A stretch of 64,000 bases of DNA from Bryobacterales bacterium (lineage in GTDB: Bacteria; Acidobacteriota; Terriglobia; Bryobacterales; UBA6623): positions 1-64,000 of the forward strand of contig JAJDZN010000255.1 in NCBI GenBank assembly GCA_022824585.1, read 5' to 3'. The notes beneath the pieces are model-generated. The model worked only from the letters and a program-made list of their open reading frames with translations, had not been told where the DNA came from and did not search any database. Both the position numbers and the translations under genes were made by a program. This document shows, in pieces, positions 2,910 through 41,997 of this stretch (within the stretch, counting starts at the first letter, position 1; each line of letters begins with the position of its first letter).

Positions 2910-4025
2910 CTAGCGCAGGTCTTGGCGACGTTCTGTGAGCGACTCGATGCGCTCTTCGTCCAAGCCATAGCCGAGCCCGGGAGCGTCGCTGACAGCGATC
3001 GTTCCCTGTCGGCTGACCTGCACGGGCGGATCGATCACGTCTTGGCTCCAGTAGCGCTTCGAAGCCGAGACGTCTCCCGGAAGCACGAACCCCGGCAGGG
3101 TTGACAGCGCAATGTTGTGCGCCCGGCCGATACCCGCCTCCAACATCCCCCCGCACCACACCGGCACGGCCGCTTGGCGGCAAACATCGTGGATGCGCAG
3201 CGCTTCGGCGAACCCGCCGACGCGACCGAGCTTGACGTTGATGATGCCGCACGCCCCGAGGCGGATCGCCTGGCGGGCGTGATGGGCCGTGCGGATGCAC
3301 TCGTCCAGGCATATAGGAGTCTTCAACTGCGCCTGTAGCTCGGCATGATCGATCAATTCGTCGTGAGCCAAGGGCTGTTCCAGCATCATCAGGCCGAATT
3401 CGTCCAGCCGCTGCAAGCTCTCGAGATCATCGAGCGAATAGGCAGAGTTGGCGTCTGCCATCAGCCGGATATCGGGAAACTGCCTCCGCACCGCCCGTAC
3501 GACATCGGCGTCCCACCCGGGCTTGATCTTGATCTTGACGCGCTGATAGCCAGCTTCGACCTCGGCTCCGATCAGCTCCAGCAGCTCGCTGACGGAGTTC
3601 TGAATGCCGATCGAGACGCCACACGCGACCTCGCGCCTCGCGCCGCCAATGTGCTGCCACAGAGGCCGCCCCAGCTTGCGCGCCTCCAATTCCCAGCAGG
3701 CCGCCTCCAAGCCGCCGCGGGCCATTCGATGCCCGCGGATCGCGTGGCTGAGCCGCCCGACATCGGCCGCCGACTCTAGCTCCTTGCCCAGGACTCGCGG
3801 GGCGACAAAGTCGCGCAGCACGAGCCAGGCCGCGTCGACCCACTCCTCGTTGTAGAACGGACGCTCGCCGCAGGTGACCTCGCCCCAGCCGATGGCGCCG
3901 TCGGAGTCTTCCACCTGCACCAGCAGGATCTGCCGTTCCGTGGTGCGACCGAAGCTGGTCTCGAACGGGCGCACCAAGGGCATGCGGATCTTGCGCAAGC
4001 CGATCCTGGTCAGGCGCATGGGCAT
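2910..4025 (-). CDS. enolase-superfamily enzyme, MenC / N-acylamino-acid racemase type
   Basis: The 371-aa product has the complete muconate-lactonizing-type active site. The catalytic lysine pair is K164/K166 in VKIKIKPGWD, the metal ligands are D191 (MADAN), E216 (LEQPL) and D241 (LDE), and the opposite-face lysine is K265 (NVKLGRVGG). The spacing and PGWD motif match o-succinylbenzoate synthases and N-succinylamino-acid racemases, which share one sequence family; no other men genes are in view to decide. The frame is open upstream into mutM, but ATG 4025, 5 bp after the mutM stop, gives the expected N-terminus. It is probably translated from a shared mRNA with mutM. Confidence 0.88.
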   Translation of the reverse strand: MPMRLTRIGLRKIRMPLVRPFETSFGRTTERQILLVQVEDSDGAIGWGEVTCGERPFYNEEWVDAAWLVLRDFVAPRVLGKELESAADVGRLSHAIRGHRMARGGLEAACWELEARKLGRPLWQHIGGARREVACGVSIGIQNSVSELLELIGAEVEAGYQRVKIKIKPGWDADVVRAVRRQFPDIRLMADANSAYSLDDLESLQRLDEFGLMMLEQPLAHDELIDHAELQAQLKTPICLDECIRTAHHARQAIRLGACGIINVKLGRVGGFAEALRIHDVCRQAAVPVWCGGMLEAGIGRAHNIALSTLPGFVLPGDVSASKRYWSQDVIDPPVQVSRQGTIAVSDAPGLGYGLDEERIESLTERRQDLR

Positions 4026-4030
4026 CGCGG

Positions 4031-4837
4031 CTAGCGCCTCTGGCAGCGCGGGCAATAGTGCGTGCTCCGCTGAGCTACGATGATGCGCCGCAACGTGGCG
4101 CGACAACTCGCGCACGGTTGGCCGGTCTTGCCGTAGACCTGCGTGCGCAGCTGGAAGTAGCCCGGGCTTCCCTGGCCGTCCACATAGTTGTTGATGCTGG
4201 TCCCGCCCGCCGAGATCGACTCTTCCAGCACGTCGCGGATCGCTTGGTGCAGCGCGCGCGCCTTGCGCGGGCTGACGCTGGCCGCGCTGCGCTCGGGGTG
4301 CAGCCTGGCACGATACAGGGCCTCGTCGGCGTAGATGTTGCCCAGGCCCCGCACGAACTCTTGGTTCAACAGCAACGCCTTCAGCCGCGTCGAACGCTCT
4401 GAGAGGCGTTTGGTGAAATCCCGCGAGTCGATCTCCAGGGGCTCCGGCCCCAGTCGGGCCAGCCGCTCCGGGAAGTCCTGCGACCACTGCCACTTGCCGA
4501 ACTTGCGGATGTCATGGAATACAACGTGGGTGCCGCCGAAGAGGAACATTTCCGCGCGGGTGTAGGGGCCCGGCTGGGCATTCAGCAGGAGATTTCCGGT
4601 CATGCGCAGGTGGATCCACAGAAACGAGCCCCGGCCGTGCTTGCTCAGCCGGAACAGCAGGTACTTGCCGTATCTGCCAACCTCGTCAATGCGCTGTCCC
4701 GCCAGTCGCGCGCTCGTCTCGTCGGGATTCCCGACACACGTGCGCGGCCAATGAAAAACAACGCGTTCGATCGTCCTGCCCTGCAGATGCGGGGCCAGCG
4801 AGCGCTTGACCGTCTCGACTTCTGGAAGTTCCGGCAT
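4031..4837 (-). CDS. mutM: formamidopyrimidine-DNA glycosylase
   Basis: The 268-aa protein is a bifunctional DNA glycosylase/AP lyase that excises oxidised purines such as 8-oxoguanine. It begins MPELPEVETV, with the catalytic Pro2 and Glu3 in place once Met is removed, and has a conserved Lys at about residue 58 (RYGKYLLF). The C-terminal zinc finger is complete, with two Cys pairs (CASC and CPRC) at the end. Length matches the family. It lies between the sirtuin gene (34 bp upstream) and the enolase-family gene (5 bp downstream), all on the minus strand, suggesting one transcript. Confidence 0.96.
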   Translation of the reverse strand: MPELPEVETVKRSLAPHLQGRTIERVVFHWPRTCVGNPDETSARLAGQRIDEVGRYGKYLLFRLSKHGRGSFLWIHLRMTGNLLLNAQPGPYTRAEMFLFGGTHVVFHDIRKFGKWQWSQDFPERLARLGPEPLEIDSRDFTKRLSERSTRLKALLLNQEFVRGLGNIYADEALYRARLHPERSAASVSPRKARALHQAIRDVLEESISAGGTSINNYVDGQGSPGYFQLRTQVYGKTGQPCASCRATLRRIIVAQRSTHYCPRCQRR

Positions 4838-30160: not shown

Positions 30161-31663
30161 TCAACGAAGGCTCGCCAGCAAGGCCGAAGCCGCCTCGATC
30201 ACTTGGTCTGCCGCGCCCGGGTTGTACGGTGACCTCTCGACTTCGTAGCCCCCGTGCTGGTACTCGTCGGCGGTTGGCACGTAATCGCCTCCCACGCCGT
30301 CCGAATAGCCGCAAAACATCGTGTACTCGAACGGCGATGCCCGCTTGACCGCCACTCCGATCTCGGCGAACGGCTCTCCGGGCATCGCGACGAGCGCGAG
30401 TTCTCCGACCCGAAGGGCCTGCACCTCGATCTGCAGCGGGGAAGGATCGACAGGCCGTGTCCACTGTGCCAGCAGGTCGGCAAAGCGGCGGATCCGAGCG
30501 CCGGCCTGGTGTCTCTCCAGAGCGGTTGCACTTTCGGGCAGTTGCCCGAGCTGTTGCTTCGCCCGTTCTAGCCTCGACCGCATACTGGCGACTTCGTCCT
30601 CGGAGTAGGCCCGCCGCGGCACGTCGACGATTCGCGAGGAGAAACGCAAGGTGGTGTCCCGCGGGCCTCGGACCCGCCAGTGCTGCTTGGCCTGGAAGGC
30701 GGTGGACTCGACGAATCCCTCGAACGTCGGAACCCTGTGCACCGTTTCGATTTGCGTCGCGACCGCCGCAACCTGATGGCCCAGGGTGCGACCGAGGCGG
30801 TGAGCAACCACGAGATCCCCGGAGAATCCCTCGATCGGCCCCTGGTTGCCGGCCGCTCCCTGGAAGAAGAGGGCGAAGGCCCCCGGGAACGCCTGCTCGA
30901 CCGTGGCGCGTGTCATCCCGATCCAGTCCGGAGAGATGAATCGGTTTTCGTATGCGAGCACCGTGCCGTGGCACTGGAAGTTGGCCAGGACAGCCATCGC
31001 TTGTCCGCGAGCATCATCGATCCGGAACACTACCAGTTCACGGTCCACGAAGCCGGCTGGGTTGCGGCCCACTGCGGGCGGGCTATCACCGTCAGCGCGA
31101 ACGCGTCGGTTGATGTTGATCGTTCCTTCCCCACGCCCGCCATGCATGTGTGCAGGCTCGAGACGGCCATTCGCCTCGGCGATCAATCCCGCTACCTTGT
31201 CAATCACAGACAAACGGTACCTTTCGGCCATGTCAACCAGCGGAGTCAGATCAAGGCCCGGCGGGCCCTTGGCGGGACTCACCGCCACGCCCGCGTGCGT
31301 GTGGGTTGCACCGATGCGGATGTGAGCCTCGGGAATTCCGGTCCGTTTCGCGGCTGCCGCGATCGCGGGTTCCAGGCCAGCACTCGAGATGCGGTCGACG
31401 TCGACCATCGCGAATTTCTGGTTGCCATCTGACAGGACCAGCGCAGTGGCCTTCATGCCGGCCGGGTCAATGCCAGCGGCCCGCACATGCGTTTGGGAGC
31501 CCCAGTTCATTTGCGCAATGCCGACCGGCGGGGTAATGTCCCCCCGGGCCACTCCCGCCAGCAAGCCCGACGGCGCCGAATCTCGCGGGCCCTGTTCGAC
31601 GACGTCCCCGAGCAGCGTCGCGGCTAGCGCCACCCCAACCATGACCCGAAGCGTTGCTGCCAT
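30161..31663 (-). CDS. neutral/alkaline ceramidase N-terminal domain protein, exported
   Basis: The 500-aa product resembles the N-terminal domain of neutral/alkaline ceramidases: GVARGDITPPVG at the start, VDVDRISSAGLEP, IRIGATHTHAG with metal-binding His residues, and the FFQGAAGNQGP motif. It lacks the C-terminal immunoglobulin-like domain of true ceramidases, as many environmental-bacterial relatives do, so its real substrate is uncertain. A hydrophobic N-terminus (LRVMVGVALAATLLG) suggests export. ATG 31663 is chosen because GGAGG lies 5 nt before it, although the frame is open for 13 more codons. It ends a five-gene minus-strand cluster. Confidence 0.85.
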   Translation of the reverse strand: MAATLRVMVGVALAATLLGDVVEQGPRDSAPSGLLAGVARGDITPPVGIAQMNWGSQTHVRAAGIDPAGMKATALVLSDGNQKFAMVDVDRISSAGLEPAIAAAAKRTGIPEAHIRIGATHTHAGVAVSPAKGPPGLDLTPLVDMAERYRLSVIDKVAGLIAEANGRLEPAHMHGGRGEGTININRRVRADGDSPPAVGRNPAGFVDRELVVFRIDDARGQAMAVLANFQCHGTVLAYENRFISPDWIGMTRATVEQAFPGAFALFFQGAAGNQGPIEGFSGDLVVAHRLGRTLGHQVAAVATQIETVHRVPTFEGFVESTAFQAKQHWRVRGPRDTTLRFSSRIVDVPRRAYSEDEVASMRSRLERAKQQLGQLPESATALERHQAGARIRRFADLLAQWTRPVDPSPLQIEVQALRVGELALVAMPGEPFAEIGVAVKRASPFEYTMFCGYSDGVGGDYVPTADEYQHGGYEVERSPYNPGAADQVIEAASALLASLR

Positions 31664-31750
31664 CAAATCCTCCATGCGCCCTGACTTGTCGACGCGTGAC
31701 ATTGCGCGATCAGCGAGTCTCCGGGTGGGGCATCCGGAAGGGGACCGCGA

Positions 31751-32848
31751 CTATGACTCGGCAGCATGTTGGAGAGCTCTGAGATAGCCGATGGCGAAGG
31801 CCCAGCCCATCTGGGATCCCACAGTATCATCGCTAAATTCCGGGGTGTGGTCCGGAATCACCAGATACCGGTACCCGACTTCCTTAAACGCCTTCATGCA
31901 GGCGAGCATATCGCAATCGCCGGCATCGTGAGGCACTTCGAGGTACTTGTAATATGGCACCTCTACGCGGACATTGCGGAAGTGGACGTGATTGATACGG
32001 TCGCGCGATCCGAAGTAACGAATCGCCTCGGCTGCGTCCTCGCCCATTTCGGTAGTGACACCAGTGTCCAAGGTGATCCCGTTCGAGGGGCTGTCGACTA
32101 GCTGGATGAGCTCCCTCTGGTCCGCCAGCGAGCGCATCGGCTGCGCCACGCCTCGAAACACCGGAATCGGCGGATCGTTTGGGTGCATAGCGAGCCGGAC
32201 GCCGGCGTCTTCGGCAACCGGGATGACCGCTCTCAAGAACCCGTCCAAGCGTTCCCAAAGCTGCTCTCTGGAGTGGGTCCCGACGTTGTCCAAGGGGGGC
32301 AGGTCGCGGGTCCGAGCCTCGTCATAGTCGCGGAGCCCGATCCCTCCCGGCCCGGTCGTCCGCCCGTAGCCCTCCGAGCCCCTCAGGGCGATGAAGTTGT
32401 ACTCAATTACGGGGATCCCAAGCTCTCCCGCGATCCGGATGTTTGTCTTGACAGCTTCAATCTCAGCCGAAGCGTCGGGCCGTCCTTGCACCACGCGATG
32501 CACTCTGCCCAGATGGAGCATCATCGGCACGAGGCCCTTGTTCTCGATGCGGGACTTGATCCGCTTGAGCTCCTCTGGGTCCCACGGCCTCATCGGTGCA
32601 TCGGTGCGAGGGCCGGTGTCGGTTGCGGGCACGAGGCCTCGCCGGCGCTGCGCCAGCGAGTAGGAAGTAGGCATCACGACATGGCGTATGCCCAGCATTT
32701 GGAAGAATTCGAGCGTCTCGTCCGACAGGTCTCGCAAGCCCTTGCCGATCTTGATCGGGGGGCCTTGGGCGGACGCGGATCGAGCAAGCGCCGCCGCCAT
32801 GGCCACAGCAGCGCCATCGCGAAGTAGTTCTCGGCGCCTGGCCGTCAT
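31751..32848 (-). CDS. mannonate-dehydratase-like TIM-barrel protein with Tat signal (paralog 1)
   Basis: The 365-aa protein starts with a twin-arginine-type signal (ARRRELLRDGAAVAMAAALARSASAQ). The body resembles UxuA-like TIM barrels: AMHPNDPPIP with the first His ligand, NGITLDTGVTTEMG, INHVHFRNVR with the second His, and VIPDHTPEF. UxuA converts D-mannonate to 2-keto-3-deoxygluconate. Where UxuA and the upstream paralog have Cys (FCQG), this protein has Asp (LDTG). It overlaps paralog 2 by 4 nt (ATGA). Activity in the periplasm, or on another acid sugar, is inferred. Confidence 0.82.
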   Translation of the reverse strand: MTARRRELLRDGAAVAMAAALARSASAQGPPIKIGKGLRDLSDETLEFFQMLGIRHVVMPTSYSLAQRRRGLVPATDTGPRTDAPMRPWDPEELKRIKSRIENKGLVPMMLHLGRVHRVVQGRPDASAEIEAVKTNIRIAGELGIPVIEYNFIALRGSEGYGRTTGPGGIGLRDYDEARTRDLPPLDNVGTHSREQLWERLDGFLRAVIPVAEDAGVRLAMHPNDPPIPVFRGVAQPMRSLADQRELIQLVDSPSNGITLDTGVTTEMGEDAAEAIRYFGSRDRINHVHFRNVRVEVPYYKYLEVPHDAGDCDMLACMKAFKEVGYRYLVIPDHTPEFSDDTVGSQMGWAFAIGYLRALQHAAES

Positions 32849-33930
32849 GCGTTCACCGCCTGCACCAGCCCCCGGATGTACCCATGGGAGAACGAGCGGC
32901 CAATCTTGCGGCCCGGCAGGTCCCCGGGAATACCCGGACTGTGGTCCGAGACGATCGCCAGATCGTAGCCCACGTCCTTGTATGCCCGCATGGCGTCGAG
33001 CATGTCGACGTCGCCCTCGTCAATGAAGGTTTCCTCGTACCGGGGCACGCTACCGCGCACAGCCCGGAAGTGGACATGGTGAATTCGCCCCCGTCCGCCG
33101 ATTCGACGAATGGCGTCGATGACGTCCACGCCCATCTCGGTCACCGTCCCCTGACAGAACGTGAAACCGTTGGCGGGGCTCGGCACCGCATCCAAGAACG
33201 CCTCGATCTCCTCGGTCGACGTCAGGAGGCGGCTCACGCCTCGCATCGCCTTGACAGGGGGATCCTTCGGATGCAGCGACATCTTGACGCCGGCCGCTTC
33301 GGCAGCATCCATTACGCCATTGGTGAAGTAGATCATGCGATCCCAGAGATCTTCCCTGGAAATGCTGCCGAGTTCTTCAAAGGGCGGGGCTTCGCGGACG
33401 CGGTTGAAGTCGAACCCCTTGTAGGTGGCACCGCCACGGCCGGGTTTGTCGTAGTAGCCGACTTCATCTCCCCAGCGGAAGTCTGGGGACCAGCGCCATT
33501 CGAGGACGGTGACGCCGACGGCGCCGGCGGCTGCGATGCTCGTTCGAATGCGCTCGATGTCCCGGTCGCGCTCCGGCCTTCCCAACATCGAATTCATCAG
33601 CCAACCGATAGGCAGCATGAGGGAGTGCAGGTTCAGGCCAAAGCTAGCGCACCGTTCCTGGACGGCCGCTACATCCTGCTCGGACCAATGGCCCTTGCCG
33701 TCGCGATCGACCGAGTCCGTGCCTTGGAAGACGACCCACTTCAAGCCCAGCTGAGCCATCCAGCGCAGCGTTGCATCGTCCAGCGAGCCGATGTTCTCCG
33801 ACAGTCGTGGGGACCACTCGCCTCCCCCCTCCGCGTTACTCGGTGCTTGCTGGCAGGCTCCTGCCAGCAAGCTCGCGACGGGCGGGCCCAGCAGAACGCT
33901 GCGACGTGGCAAGCGACGATCCGGGGTCAT
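32845..33930 (-). CDS. mannonate-dehydratase-like TIM-barrel lipoprotein (paralog 2)
   Basis: The 361-aa protein begins with PRRSVLLGPPVASLLAGAC, a twin-arginine motif merging into a lipobox, so it is probably a Tat-exported lipoprotein. The barrel keeps the UxuA-type metal site: SLHPKDPPV (His), FCQGTVTEMG (Cys), HHVHFRAVRG (His) and VSDHSPGIPG (Asp). The ATG at 33930 with GGAGAG upstream is preferred; the frame is open further but without homologous sequence. It is the partner of the 31751-32848 gene, which overlaps its stop by 4 nt. UxuA is normally cytosolic, so two exported copies are unusual. Confidence 0.83.
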   Translation of the reverse strand: MTPDRRLPRRSVLLGPPVASLLAGACQQAPSNAEGGGEWSPRLSENIGSLDDATLRWMAQLGLKWVVFQGTDSVDRDGKGHWSEQDVAAVQERCASFGLNLHSLMLPIGWLMNSMLGRPERDRDIERIRTSIAAAGAVGVTVLEWRWSPDFRWGDEVGYYDKPGRGGATYKGFDFNRVREAPPFEELGSISREDLWDRMIYFTNGVMDAAEAAGVKMSLHPKDPPVKAMRGVSRLLTSTEEIEAFLDAVPSPANGFTFCQGTVTEMGVDVIDAIRRIGGRGRIHHVHFRAVRGSVPRYEETFIDEGDVDMLDAMRAYKDVGYDLAIVSDHSPGIPGDLPGRKIGRSFSHGYIRGLVQAVNA

Positions 33931-34083: not shown

Positions 34084-35685
34084 CTATGGCGAATCGGCCT
34101 CGCGCACCGCTTGCCGCGCCTGCAAGAGTCTCGGTCGTCTCTCGAGGAGCTTCCGCCACGTCGCCGTCGCTTTTGAATCCTTGCCCAGATCGTGATACAC
34201 CCTCGCCAGCATCCGGTAGCTGGACTCCAGCGTCGGCTCCCGGCGGATAGCCTCTTGGAGCGCAGCTTCAGCTCGGTCCGCATCGCCCAGTGCCCACCAC
34301 GCCGCTGCTAGCGAATTGAATTGAAGCGCTCCGACGGGTCCTGCGGAGACAGCCTCTCGCAGCTTCTGCAGTGCTGAGCGCGGAGACCCGGTGAGCACCA
34401 TGGCCGTTCCCAAGGCGTCCAACGCGGCTGGGTCGTTCCCGATCGATCCAGCGACAGATCTCAACTGCCCAAGGCCTCGCCGTAGCATTTCTTGGGAACC
34501 GCGCTGCTGGCCGTAAAGAACGTTCGCAATTCCCAAGTTTCGGACCCGAACAGTACGAGGAGCCGGCCTCCAAGGGCGGAGCTCGTCGGGCGGATCGGGA
34601 TTGACCTCTGGCAACGGGTAGCGAGTGATCCGATGATCTGTGAATGCGCTGTGGCCGCTGTCGTGCGATTGGCGTCTCGGCATGTGGCAGGAAATGCAGT
34701 CTCCGCTACGCGTCGCATGATCCGGGGGCGACCCGTCTTCGTGGCACTGCAGGCACCGCGCGCTGAAGTAGGCCTTCGGCTCAGTGGGAACTTCGTGGGG
34801 ATTGTGGCACGTGCCGCACCAAAGCGCATCGCCGGACTCCACGGCGCAGCGACTCAGGTTCAACTGCTCGACATGGCTGACAACCTGGAACCGATCCTGC
34901 CATCCTTCGGTCCGTGGCACTCCCACGAACACCGTCCAGAAATCCTCCAGCAGCCCTCCCGGCTGGAACGAACCGAACGTACGGCCGGGATGCAGGATGC
35001 GGATGGTCCCTCCCAAGTGGCACTGCTCGCAGACGCTATCCCGCTCGCGCGGCGAGGCGGCGGCCGGATTGAATATCGTGGCCGCGCTGGGTTCGGCCAG
35101 ATGCGCTTCGGGGGAGCCGTGGCAGCGATCGCAGGAAATGGCCTCCGCTTTGAGCGCCGGGTCCCCGTAACGGTTCACCGTGTCGGGCGTGTGCGCGGGC
35201 CTGCCCGCATGGCACCACAAGCACTCGGACGTCGCCGGGCGGTTGAAGTCAGGGTTCGCCTCCCGCTCCATGCCCGGTGCCATGCCCCATTGATCGCGCT
35301 CCGTGTAGTACGCGATCGGGGACTGAAACAACGCATCGCCGACACGGACCAAGTATCCGAACGCCGCGTTTCCTGATCCGATCACATAGTCAATCGTGTA
35401 CTCCGCACTAAGCCCACCCCTTTCGATCTCCTGAACAAGGCTCCCAGCCGACGCGCTCGTGCGAAACGCTGTGCCGGAGAAGCCGTGTCCGTACGGGCCG
35501 ATCGGATGGCCGTCGGCCAGCTTGGAGATCGAGCGGCCCATGCCGCTGAGGCGGTACTGCTCAACCACCTCAGCGTGGCATCTTGCGCATTCTTGCCAGC
35601 TGGGTGCGGCGGACGCAGTCATCGCCGCAAGCGCCGCCGTGACCGCGGTCGCGGCTCTCGCTCCGGCCATGGCGCACTTTCGCAT
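34084..35685 (-). CDS. exported heptaheme cytochrome c with TPR region
   Basis: The 533-aa protein has an N-terminal signal (AGARAATAVTAALAAMTASA) and seven CxxCH heme sites: CARCH, CLWCH, CDRCH, CEQCH, CGTCH, CLQCH and CISCH, all in the first two thirds. The last third (from about residue 385) is a chain of tetratricopeptide repeats, for instance ALDALGTAMVLTGSPRSAL and [20 protein letters not shown]. The layout matches the cytochrome c554/NrfA-like multiheme-plus-TPR proteins of environmental bacteria. It likely moves electrons in the periplasm, with a partner docking to the TPRs. It lies 55 bp after the ADP-ribosylglycohydrolase gene. Confidence 0.9.
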   Translation of the reverse strand: MRKCAMAGARAATAVTAALAAMTASAAPSWQECARCHAEVVEQYRLSGMGRSISKLADGHPIGPYGHGFSGTAFRTSASAGSLVQEIERGGLSAEYTIDYVIGSGNAAFGYLVRVGDALFQSPIAYYTERDQWGMAPGMEREANPDFNRPATSECLWCHAGRPAHTPDTVNRYGDPALKAEAISCDRCHGSPEAHLAEPSAATIFNPAAASPRERDSVCEQCHLGGTIRILHPGRTFGSFQPGGLLEDFWTVFVGVPRTEGWQDRFQVVSHVEQLNLSRCAVESGDALWCGTCHNPHEVPTEPKAYFSARCLQCHEDGSPPDHATRSGDCISCHMPRRQSHDSGHSAFTDHRITRYPLPEVNPDPPDELRPWRPAPRTVRVRNLGIANVLYGQQRGSQEMLRRGLGQLRSVAGSIGNDPAALDALGTAMVLTGSPRSALQKLREAVSAGPVGALQFNSLAAAWWALGDADRAEAALQEAIRREPTLESSYRMLARVYHDLGKDSKATATWRKLLERRPRLLQARQAVREADSP

Positions 35686-35741: not shown

Positions 35742-36953
35742 TTACTGAGTGACGATCTGGACCAAGCCAGCAGACTTCGCCGCTGTCATCCGCGTACCGG
35801 CGGCGGCCGTGCGACGCGCTAGCTCGTCAATCTCCAACTCCTCAGCGCCTTTCACGTCACTGCGAAAGATGTTAGCAATGGGCTCGGTCCATTTCTCGGC
35901 AATCGCTCCCGCCCCGAGGATGACTCCCAGTACGGGCGCGACGTCGCCCGCATTCGTGTCCGTGTCCCAGCCAGCCATGACAGCAATTCCGACCGTCTTG
36001 TCGAAGTCGCCCGCGCCATATAGCAGAGCCAATGCGATCACCGCGTTGTTCGGAAACACGCGGCGGTTCTTGTCACCTTCGGGTGCCCAGTTGACATCGA
36101 TCTGCTCATGAGCCTTTTCCCAGTCGTCTGGCCACTGCTCGTGCCACTGCATCACGTCTCGGATGCAACGGGCGTAGTCGCTGTCCCCGGGGACTACCGC
36201 GAGCCCTGCCTCCAAGAGCTTGGTCGGATCGGACTCAAAGAAAGCCTCGGCTGTCAGGGCCGCCATGAACATCTCGCCGTAAACGCCCGCAGTATGAAAG
36301 GCAACCTCGGCGTCCATCCGCCCGTACTCGGCGGCCGCTTCCGGATTCCCGGGCAGCAAGAAGCCCCAGAACTCCCCTTTCATCTGGCCCCCCATGAACT
36401 CGCCCGCTTCATGCTGGCCCGACTCTGGAGGCATCACTCCCTCCTTCAAGAGTCGCTCCGCCACCCTCACGGCACGACCGCAGTTCTGGGCCTCGAACAC
36501 CGAAAAGGACGCGAGCCACTGGTCGGCAATGTCCTGGCTGGTAATCTCGGGCCCCTTTTCCTCGATCAACAGCAGATTCGCGACTTGGAAGAGCGAGTCA
36601 TCGTCGGGACCGAACCCAGGCGGACCCCAATGATCCGCCGTGTACCATTTCTCGCGGTGTGGATCCAAGCTAGGCCGCAGTGTCTTGATGTAGTCGGTAA
36701 GCGGCCACTGCCCCAAATCGGTGAGGAATGACTTGAGTTCCTGCTTGTGCATCCTCTGCACGCTCATCCCCAGAGCGCTCCCGACTGCCTCGCCGAGCCA
36801 ACCGCCGTGAATCTTCTCTAGGTAGTCGGCAGCGCTCAGCGAGCGGACCGACAGGCTATCCTCGTCGGTCTGAGGAGCCTGTGCCCCGCCTCCGCATGCG
36901 GCGAGCATCGCGGCGGCCAAGCACGTGGCTGCAATTGCATTCACTAAGTTCAT
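35742..36953 (-). CDS. ADP-ribosylglycohydrolase-family lipoprotein
   Basis: The 403-aa product starts MNLVNAIAATCLAAAMLAAC, a lipoprotein signal with lipobox LAAC. The mature part has the DraG/ARH-type fold: KIHGGWLGEAVGSALG at the start, an acidic metal motif GPDDDSLF, and the C-terminal AGWDTDTNAGDVAPVLG with the second metal cluster. Cytosolic relatives remove ADP-ribose from proteins; exported relatives in glycan-degrading bacteria have unknown substrates, perhaps nucleosides or glycosides. It has AGGAGC before the ATG and is the first gene of the minus-strand cluster 30161-36953. Confidence 0.87.
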   Translation of the reverse strand: MNLVNAIAATCLAAAMLAACGGGAQAPQTDEDSLSVRSLSAADYLEKIHGGWLGEAVGSALGMSVQRMHKQELKSFLTDLGQWPLTDYIKTLRPSLDPHREKWYTADHWGPPGFGPDDDSLFQVANLLLIEEKGPEITSQDIADQWLASFSVFEAQNCGRAVRVAERLLKEGVMPPESGQHEAGEFMGGQMKGEFWGFLLPGNPEAAAEYGRMDAEVAFHTAGVYGEMFMAALTAEAFFESDPTKLLEAGLAVVPGDSDYARCIRDVMQWHEQWPDDWEKAHEQIDVNWAPEGDKNRRVFPNNAVIALALLYGAGDFDKTVGIAVMAGWDTDTNAGDVAPVLGVILGAGAIAEKWTEPIANIFRSDVKGAEELEIDELARRTAAAGTRMTAAKSAGLVQIVTQ

Positions 36954-40527: not shown

Positions 40528-41997
40528 TCAATAGCTGTCCACACGCTGGCGCATCGCTGCAATGAAAGCAGGATCAAGCAACGGATCGTTCGTCGTGCGG
40601 CGCCAGTCGTCCAAGGCCGCCTGCAATCGTTCCAGTGTCGCTGCGTGTTCCGGGTCGCCGGCGAGATTGCGGAACTCCCAGGGATCCTCATCCAAGTCGT
40701 ACAGTTCCAACTCCGGAGGATGAGCAAGGCTGTCGAACGCACGCCGGACCGGCGTCCCCTCGTAGCGCTGCTCTCGAGAAGTCACGTAGCCCAAGTCCCC
40801 ATCGATGCCGATTCTGGCAGGCCCGGATCCGGCCAGCAGATTGTGAATCAGCTTGTACCGGTCGTCCCGGATGGCGCGCCGGGGAAACCATGGCGGCCCA
40901 TGCATGTGAAACTCGCCGACAAGGTATTCGCGCCAAGGCGCCTCGGGATCCTCCAGGACCGGCCGCAGCGACATCCCTTGCATCTCGACAGCAGGGAGCG
41001 CTCCTGTTGCGTCCAGGATTGTAGGAAGGATATCGACGGTCGAGACCATCGCCCCGCTCCGCGCGCGCTGTGACACGCCGGGCCAGCGCACAAGGAAAGG
41101 GACCCGCAAGCCGCCCTCGTAGACCGTTGTCTTGCCACGGTCGAACGGGGGCCCGTGGTCGCCCGTGAAGATTACCAGCGTGTCGCCGGAATGTCCCTTT
41201 CGCTGGACGGCGTCCACAAGCAGACCGACTCCGATGTCGAGCCGCACGACTTCGTTGTAGTAGCCGGCCACTCGCGCGCGCTGCTCCGGGGTGTCGATCC
41301 TCTGGAATGGAAACACTGTCTGTTCGCTTGGCTCGACCAAGGTTGGAGGAATGCCCTCGAACTGGTCCATGAAGGTCCAGTCCCCGACGATCTCCCGCGT
41401 CTCCGGATCCCGCCTGCGGAAGGCGTGCGGATCGGTGTAGTTCACCATCAAGAAGAACGGGCTCTCGTCCGCGTTACCGATGAACTCTTCGGCGGCCGCC
41501 GCGATCCCCTTCACGTCGCGGCCGTCCACCCTCGAACGGACGTCCCACCGGAACTTGTCTTCCGGGGCGACGTGCAGCTTCCCGATGATGCCGGTTCGAT
41601 AACCAGCTCGCTTGAGGACGTTTGGAATCGTGGCGTCGTGCAGGTGTGGGTGCAGGCTGAAGTCCGAGGCATTGGTCAGCCCGAACTGCCCGTTGCTGTG
41701 CACATAGAGGCCCGTGAACATAGCACTGCGGGAGGGGCTGCACGACGCTTGCGCCACGTAGGCGACGTCGAACTGGACGCCGCTGGCCGCGAGGGCGTCG
41801 ATGTTCGGAGTTTCAATGACACTGTCCCCGTACGCGCTCAGTTGAAGACCGAGATCATCGGCCGTGATAAGCAGGACGTTGAGCCGCGACGGTGGTTCGG
41901 CTGGCTCGCGCGTGCAGCCGATCGCTCCGAGCAGCAGGATTGCCAGCGCGATTCGCCCCGTCGCTACCAAGGTTCGCGAAGACCGTGGATCGTGCAC
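40528..41997 (-). CDS. sulfatase lipoprotein (N-sulfoglucosamine sulfohydrolase-like)
   Basis: The 489-aa protein has a lipoprotein signal (ALAILLLGAIGC, Cys28). Metal residues D47/D48 lie in ITADDLG; the formylglycine site is Cys86 in SCSPSRSAMFTG; further ligands are in FTGDHGPPFDRGK with VYEGG after it. The subfamily features (ADDLG start, GLYVHSNGQFG) resemble heparan N-sulfatase/S1 sulfatases that desulfate glycans. Cys86 needs conversion to formylglycine; no anaerobic or FGE-type maturase is in the window. The start GTG 41997 follows GGAGG by 7 nt. It stands alone. Confidence 0.92.
   Translation of the reverse strand: MHDPRSSRTLVATGRIALAILLLGAIGCTREPAEPPSRLNVLLITADDLGLQLSAYGDSVIETPNIDALAASGVQFDVAYVAQASCSPSRSAMFTGLYVHSNGQFGLTNASDFSLHPHLHDATIPNVLKRAGYRTGIIGKLHVAPEDKFRWDVRSRVDGRDVKGIAAAAEEFIGNADESPFFLMVNYTDPHAFRRRDPETREIVGDWTFMDQFEGIPPTLVEPSEQTVFPFQRIDTPEQRARVAGYYNEVVRLDIGVGLLVDAVQRKGHSGDTLVIFTGDHGPPFDRGKTTVYEGGLRVPFLVRWPGVSQRARSGAMVSTVDILPTILDATGALPAVEMQGMSLRPVLEDPEAPWREYLVGEFHMHGPPWFPRRAIRDDRYKLIHNLLAGSGPARIGIDGDLGYVTSREQRYEGTPVRRAFDSLAHPPELELYDLDEDPWEFRNLAGDPEHAATLERLQAALDDWRRTTNDPLLDPAFIAAMRQRVDSY

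Follow-up and report, generated by a model that had tools for sequence, protein, structure and literature searches.

A conserved pair of apparently exported UxuA-family barrels with Cys- and Asp-type candidate metal sites in Bryobacterales

Mannonate dehydratase (UxuA) is taught as a single cytosolic step of uronate breakdown. What might be the role of two adjacent UxuA-like genes, both of which appear to encode exported proteins and which differ at a metal-ligand position? The question is raised by a Bryobacterales metagenome-assembled genome (MAG) of 6.18 Mb in 341 contigs (91.8% complete), whose close relatives are Bryobacterales/Terriglobia MAGs, many of them presumably from sponges to judge by the isolate names. 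In the window, i.e. the whole stretch of 64,000 nucleotides that was analysed, the pair and its surroundings comprise the following features:

30161..31702, minus strand: protein with a ceramidase N-terminal domain (PF04734), 48 nt downstream of gene B; beside the pair in close relatives
31751..32848, minus strand: gene B, predicted exported UxuA-family barrel of the Asp type, 365 aa; ligand positions H222, D261, H289, D333; Tat-type leader
32066..32068, minus strand: codon of Asp261 of B, the place equivalent by alignment to Cys259 of A
32845..32848, minus strand: 4-nt ATGA overlap, stop of A and start of B
32845..33930, minus strand: gene A, predicted exported UxuA-family barrel, 361 aa; ligand positions H220, C259, H287, D329; Tat-type leader and lipobox (Cys26)
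33154..33156, minus strand: codon of Cys259 in A, a metal ligand by alignment
34084..35685, minus strand: multihaem cytochrome with fused TPR repeats, immediately upstream of A; beside the pair in close relatives

The initial annotation described A and B as tandem paralogs with a 4-nt overlap and differing motifs at one position; the coordinates are exact, and the motifs NGFTFCQGTVTEMG in A and NGITLDTGVTTEMG in B are both present, placing C259 of A opposite D261 of B. Its "paralog 1", said to have the altered site, is the downstream gene B. The observation was thus confirmed, and the pair is real, conserved and unusual. Frames of 777-799 amino acids, considered as candidates for two barrels fused in one protein, proved to be neighboring ORFs when read. 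Our best but tentative reading, to which we give slightly less than an even chance, is that A and B constitute an exported metal-dependent pair acting on sugars or sugar acids, with a chemistry unlike that of UxuA.

The UxuA-like designation holds at the level of fold and Pfam family. Both proteins match the Pfam UxuA family PF03786 (A 2.3e-45, 155.3 bits; B 3.8e-49, 167.8 bits) and pass its gathering score of 23.7 bits, and their closest solved structures by sequence are the mannonate dehydratases 3ban, 1tz9 and 4eac. Predicted models (pLDDT 88.2 for A and 81.5 for B, the latter covering residues 2-365) matched 3ban with Z scores of 37.9 and 36.8 respectively, with the next non-UxuA entries at 25.8 and 25.0. 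A and B share with these UxuA/ManD enzymes the four ligand positions and the HP.DPP and HxR motifs, but differ from them in having leaders, in lacking the RWYGP start and the tyrosine of the C-terminal PGY motif, in falling below the NCBI cut-offs and, in the case of B, in the Asp for Cys. Identity to E. coli UxuA is 24% for A and 29% for B.

The designation probably does not extend to function as mannonate dehydratase. Against the NCBI models PRK03906 and TIGR00695, A scored 118.4 and 75.7 bits and B 133.7 and 100.7 bits, missing the cut-offs of 191 and 199.55 bits in both cases, whereas the control, E. coli UxuA, passes with 634 and 794.6 bits; none of the four UxuA-family genes in the source genome reaches these cut-offs. 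The PGY tyrosine, which we take to be catalytic in UxuA, is absent from all six rows of the A clade and all seven H-D-H-D rows, and is found in 4/4 canonical rows and 24 of the 31 exported rows with a QANF or QGNF motif; 4/23 H-D-H-E rows match the pattern. The QANF/QGNF proteins (e.g. at L017 and L024) resemble the pair in their Tat-type leader and, like A, in the H-C-H-D site, but most keep the tyrosine and the two that were tested pass PRK03906, neither of which is true of A or B. Both Pfam match and fold, together with the presence of UxaC and a KDPG-type aldolase in the source genome, would suit the proposal that A and B are mannonate dehydratases relocated outside the cytoplasm to serve the UxaC-UxuB-UxuA route. 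We consider this very unlikely, given that both proteins score below NCBIfam cut-offs that are cleared by E. coli UxuA and by two exported relatives, that the tyrosine is missing and that a PF08125 (UxuB-type) reductase was not found in the 91.8% complete source MAG.

Alignment with UxuA structures bore out the earlier claim that the differing residue occupies the place of the UxuA metal Cys. The ligand numbers of UxuA, which we take from Streptococcus suis ManD, agree with the ligand spacing counted in the alignment with the structures. At these four places the His-Cys-His-Asp quartet of UxuA is complete in A (H-C-H-D) and broken in B (H-D-H-D), where Asp261 takes the place of the Cys. A family comparison of 199 segments from 219 loci, reduced to 105 non-redundant members at 90%, recovered 72 H-C-H-D, 23 H-D-H-E and 7 H-D-H-D members and three without intact ligands. 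In a tree built with the Cys/Asp column and the last-ligand column masked, all 30 Asp-type rows of the 105 fell on one side of a single branch (SH-aLRT 99), with the H-D-H-E rows nested within this clade (support 100) and the six-row A clade as its sister (support 96). This sequence comparison makes A and B two sister subfamilies within the UxuA family, which has the xylose-isomerase-like TIM-barrel fold, and the difference between their predicted metal sites is genuine and clade-wide. The Asp clade spans Acidobacteriota and Bacteroidota, its members mainly carry apparent export leaders, and in most of them Glu replaces the last Asp. At strict thresholds 12/396 Acidobacteriota genomes were matched, counting the source genome; two of these (G739 and G716) hold Cys-type relatives of A, so the Asp type occurs in 10/396. 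Similarly, 3/296 Bacteroidota genomes were matched, counting the centre G150, of which G438 is Cys-type, leaving the Asp type in 2/296; both Asp-type counts are lower bounds. In the tree rooted with nine outgroup rows (see below), which samples few phyla, canonical cytosolic UxuA, including that of E. coli, was placed among exported relatives; an AU test disfavored keeping canonical UxuA apart (p 0.018), for a group named after the tree was seen.

The earlier proposal of an altered metal site in one paralog is hence to be qualified: the difference stands, but Asp is fixed throughout an old clade represented in two phyla, and the wider barrel superfamily normally uses this same residue as ligand. 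In an alignment of the Asp-type profile with the tagatose-epimerase-like MJ1311 (a weak match, E 0.095), the Asp falls on the superfamily Asp and the first His on a Glu, and 10 of the 11 AP_endonuc_2 rows from the source genome have Asp and Glu at those columns, the eleventh probably being a wrong-frame ORF. Taken together these alignments make the B site intermediate between UxuA and the epimerases. Related sugar-isomerase barrels typically have Asp at this ligand place, so the phrase "Cys replaced by Asp" may have the direction reversed. Rooting the tree with 11 outgroup rows placed the root among the Cys types, and rooting with nine, after removal of two long branches (OUT_L249 and OUT_L251, the latter probably in the wrong frame), placed it beside the Asp clade with a support of only 35. 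Asp may thus have been either retained or regained, as rooting gave both placements.

The same alignments raise a doubtful though possible alternative, in which B, and perhaps also A, would not be an acid-sugar dehydratase but would isomerize or epimerize sugars or act as a keto-sugar lyase/hydratase, with the Asp bringing the site near the E-D-H-E quartet of tagatose/psicose epimerases and related keto-sugar enzymes. The Asp shared with MJ1311 and the AP_endonuc_2 rows, the loss of the UxuA tyrosine from both proteins and the prevalence of Glu as last ligand in the Asp clade are consistent with it, as is the fact that the many barrels listed by Foldseek take in two keto-sugar enzymes, AtHYD (8ro4) and YcjR (6wn6), though these two lie far below the UxuA entries and a shared fold shows no function. 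However, the first ligand is His and not Glu in 30/30 Asp-type rows, the fit to UxuA structures exceeds that to any epimerase by about 11 Z units, and the RraA-like neighbors of other Asp-type genes, described below, suit acid sugars better. The tagatose/psicose 3-epimerases and other xylose-isomerase-like barrels (PF01261) accordingly resemble B in the barrel fold and in Asp and His at two ligand places, but have Glu as first ligand, and the complete Glu-Asp-His-Glu quartet of epimerases is absent from the His-Asp-His-Asp of B. Another barrel dehydratase, the myo-inosose dehydratase IolE (TIGR04379), which belongs to the inositol route, is matched by B weakly and partially (22.2 bits, 8.9e-05), far under its 290-bit cut-off.

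With regard to location, the twin-arginine-type N-termini noted earlier, one with a lipobox, were recovered by a simple rule (RR plus a hydrophobic stretch), and the leaders are kept in relatives. In A, PRR occupies residues 8-10 and is followed by the lipobox LAGAC with Cys26, which suggests that A is probably lipoprotein-anchored after export; B has ARRRELL and a likely cleavage site at ASA|Q. By the same rule leaders are present in 109 of 136 family members in the sampled genomes: 12/14 H-D-H-D, 25/27 H-D-H-E, 4/4 ligand-less and 68/91 H-C-H-D proteins, the last set including some misplaced starts as well as groups without leaders, canonical UxuA among them. None of the five canonical UxuA rows has one. 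The two leaderless H-D-H-D proteins are the B genes of genus g4, and of the two leaderless H-D-H-E proteins one is truncated by the contig end, while for the other a leader lies farther upstream.

Conservation of the pairing in other genomes was likewise borne out. Among the 18 genomes of this bacterial family, 12 have orthologues of both A and B (B threshold E < 1e-170), A being degenerate in one (L014/L277), and the remaining six lack both, two of these six having another Asp type; this co-occurrence gives a Fisher value of 5.4e-5 with kinship ignored. The genes are adjacent in 10 of the 12 genomes and unlinked in two (G021 and G025), where B also lacks a leader, so that an obligate exported complex cannot apply there. 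An A-clade gene with no detected B was seen in G739 and G716, which are MAGs 65% and 72% complete. Beyond this lineage, Asp-type genes adjoin a second family gene in Adhaeribacter, Mucilaginibacter, G264 and G126 and are solitary at other loci. In codon comparisons of the window's genes with those of four close relatives (L008, L009, L010 and L012) the dN/dS was 0.09-0.14 for A and 0.08-0.11 for B, and in seven more distant comparisons 0.07-0.21 (excluding the degenerate A, at 0.30); by these ratios both genes are under purifying selection. The conservation of the pair and these values together lead us to reject chance or an annotation artefact. As a separate observation, an Adhaeribacter region (L017:6502-15508) has four exported UxuA-family genes in a row, with a PQQ sugar/alcohol dehydrogenase bearing a cytochrome domain some distance after.

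Certain relatives have lost the ligands. At L014:7048-8004 (genome G005) the A orthologue has R, S, E and D at the four places and a shortened barrel, beside an intact B, and in three Mucilaginibacter genomes (L268, L269 and L270) a copy with L, S, R and D lies directly before an intact one. All four ligand-less copies keep an open frame and a leader, and the losses map to two points on the tree, which hints that a family copy may be able to serve without catalysis. Such copies would favor a heteromer in which one of A and B is a non-catalytic partner for binding, stability or anchoring. For the pair in the window we regard this as unlikely: both quartets are complete there, B is leaderless in two genomes, and the A copy of L014, with its dN/dS of 0.30 and end branch of 1.21, is evolving rapidly and perhaps decaying.

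The cytochrome and ceramidase-domain neighbors were not found at L014 or L015, and no RraA-like or MR_MLE gene was found in the nine regions of the A-B lineage. Further upstream in the window (35742-36953) lies a lipoprotein-like and apparently exported ADP-ribosylglycohydrolase family protein (PF03747). Sulfatases recur near UxuA-family genes (40528-41997 in the source stretch, L011:2348-3862 and L113:7289-8944). The source genome has 35 MR_MLE, 37 AP_endonuc_2 and five RraA-like matches; one of this large number of MR_MLE (enolase superfamily) genes is at 2910-4493, and on contig C147 a third, exported UxuA-family member stands beside two MR_MLE genes.

Outside the A-B lineage, an RraA-like aldolase gene is present in 7/26 Asp-type regions versus 1/38 control regions (p 0.006), or 5/24 when the three Mucilaginibacter are counted once (p 0.028); for this count the Asp-holding controls L199 and L201, both without matches, were moved to the Asp set, and L271/L272 were excluded as members of the B lineage. 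MR_MLE genes were not enriched (5/26 versus 4/38 controls, p 0.47). Individual loci combine these functions: L110 has a SusC/D-like pair (ORF starts only), an Asp and a Cys type, an RraA-like gene, two MR_MLE genes and an SBF transporter; L175 a Cys type, an Asp type, MR_MLE and RraA-like genes; L018-L020 two Asp types, two RraA-like genes and one Cys type; and L105 an Asp type, a galactonate-transporter-like MFS protein (below its cut-off), an RraA-like gene and a Cys type. Relatives of enolase-superfamily acid-sugar dehydratases accompany the Asp type at L099, L110 and L175. A general tie of UxuA-family genes to either family across the order was unconvincing in 40 regions versus 40 C2 controls (MR_MLE 8/40 versus 4/40, p 0.35; RraA 5/40 versus 1/40, p 0.20), the control regions being shorter in sum (550,593 versus 664,696 bases). 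The acid-sugar substrate suggested in the initial annotation is therefore plausible from RraA-like and some enolase-superfamily neighbors in other bacteria, and not from the source genome or the 0/9 A-B lineage regions. Overall that interpretation is partly supported, with its acid-sugar and altered-site components plausible once corrected as described.

Returning to an exported metal-dependent pair, we infer Tat export, metal binding, functional pairing, substrate class and reaction from the above. On this reading A and B would be products of a single unit of overlapping genes, and both proteins would fold and acquire their metal in the cytoplasm before leaving by Tat; metal loading generally precedes Tat export. 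Outside the cytoplasm the pair would act on a sugar or sugar acid, with a metal, coordinated at the mouth of the barrel by four side chains, chelating a hydroxy-carboxylate or hydroxy-ketone and driving water loss or a related proton-transfer step. B would perform its reaction with a carboxylate ligand (H-D-H-D) where UxuA uses a thiolate; this ligand and the absence of the UxuA tyrosine suggest that B departs from mannonate dehydration in its reaction or its substrate. More speculatively, and on balance rather unlikely in this full form, Asp-type barrels might belong to an extracytoplasmic acid-sugar route, in which exported UxuA-like and enolase-superfamily dehydratases yield keto-deoxy acids that are split by an exported RraA-like aldolase. 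Such a route would draw on uptake across the outer membrane or on sugar oxidation in the periplasm, with tandem barrels as heteromers in which one copy may lose its metal site.

We found no paper on exported UxuA proteins or the Asp-type site in the literature covered, including PMC7953866 and PMC6353982, an absence that is weak because most subscription journals lie outside this coverage. The UxuA Pfam family looks far wider than the cytosolic enzyme, with several subfamilies and export leaders in most sampled members, and an automatically assigned name such as "mannonate dehydratase" should not be trusted for genes of the A and B type. The natural metal-site series H-C-H-D, H-D-H-D and H-D-H-E would offer a way to test the role of the thiolate ligand.
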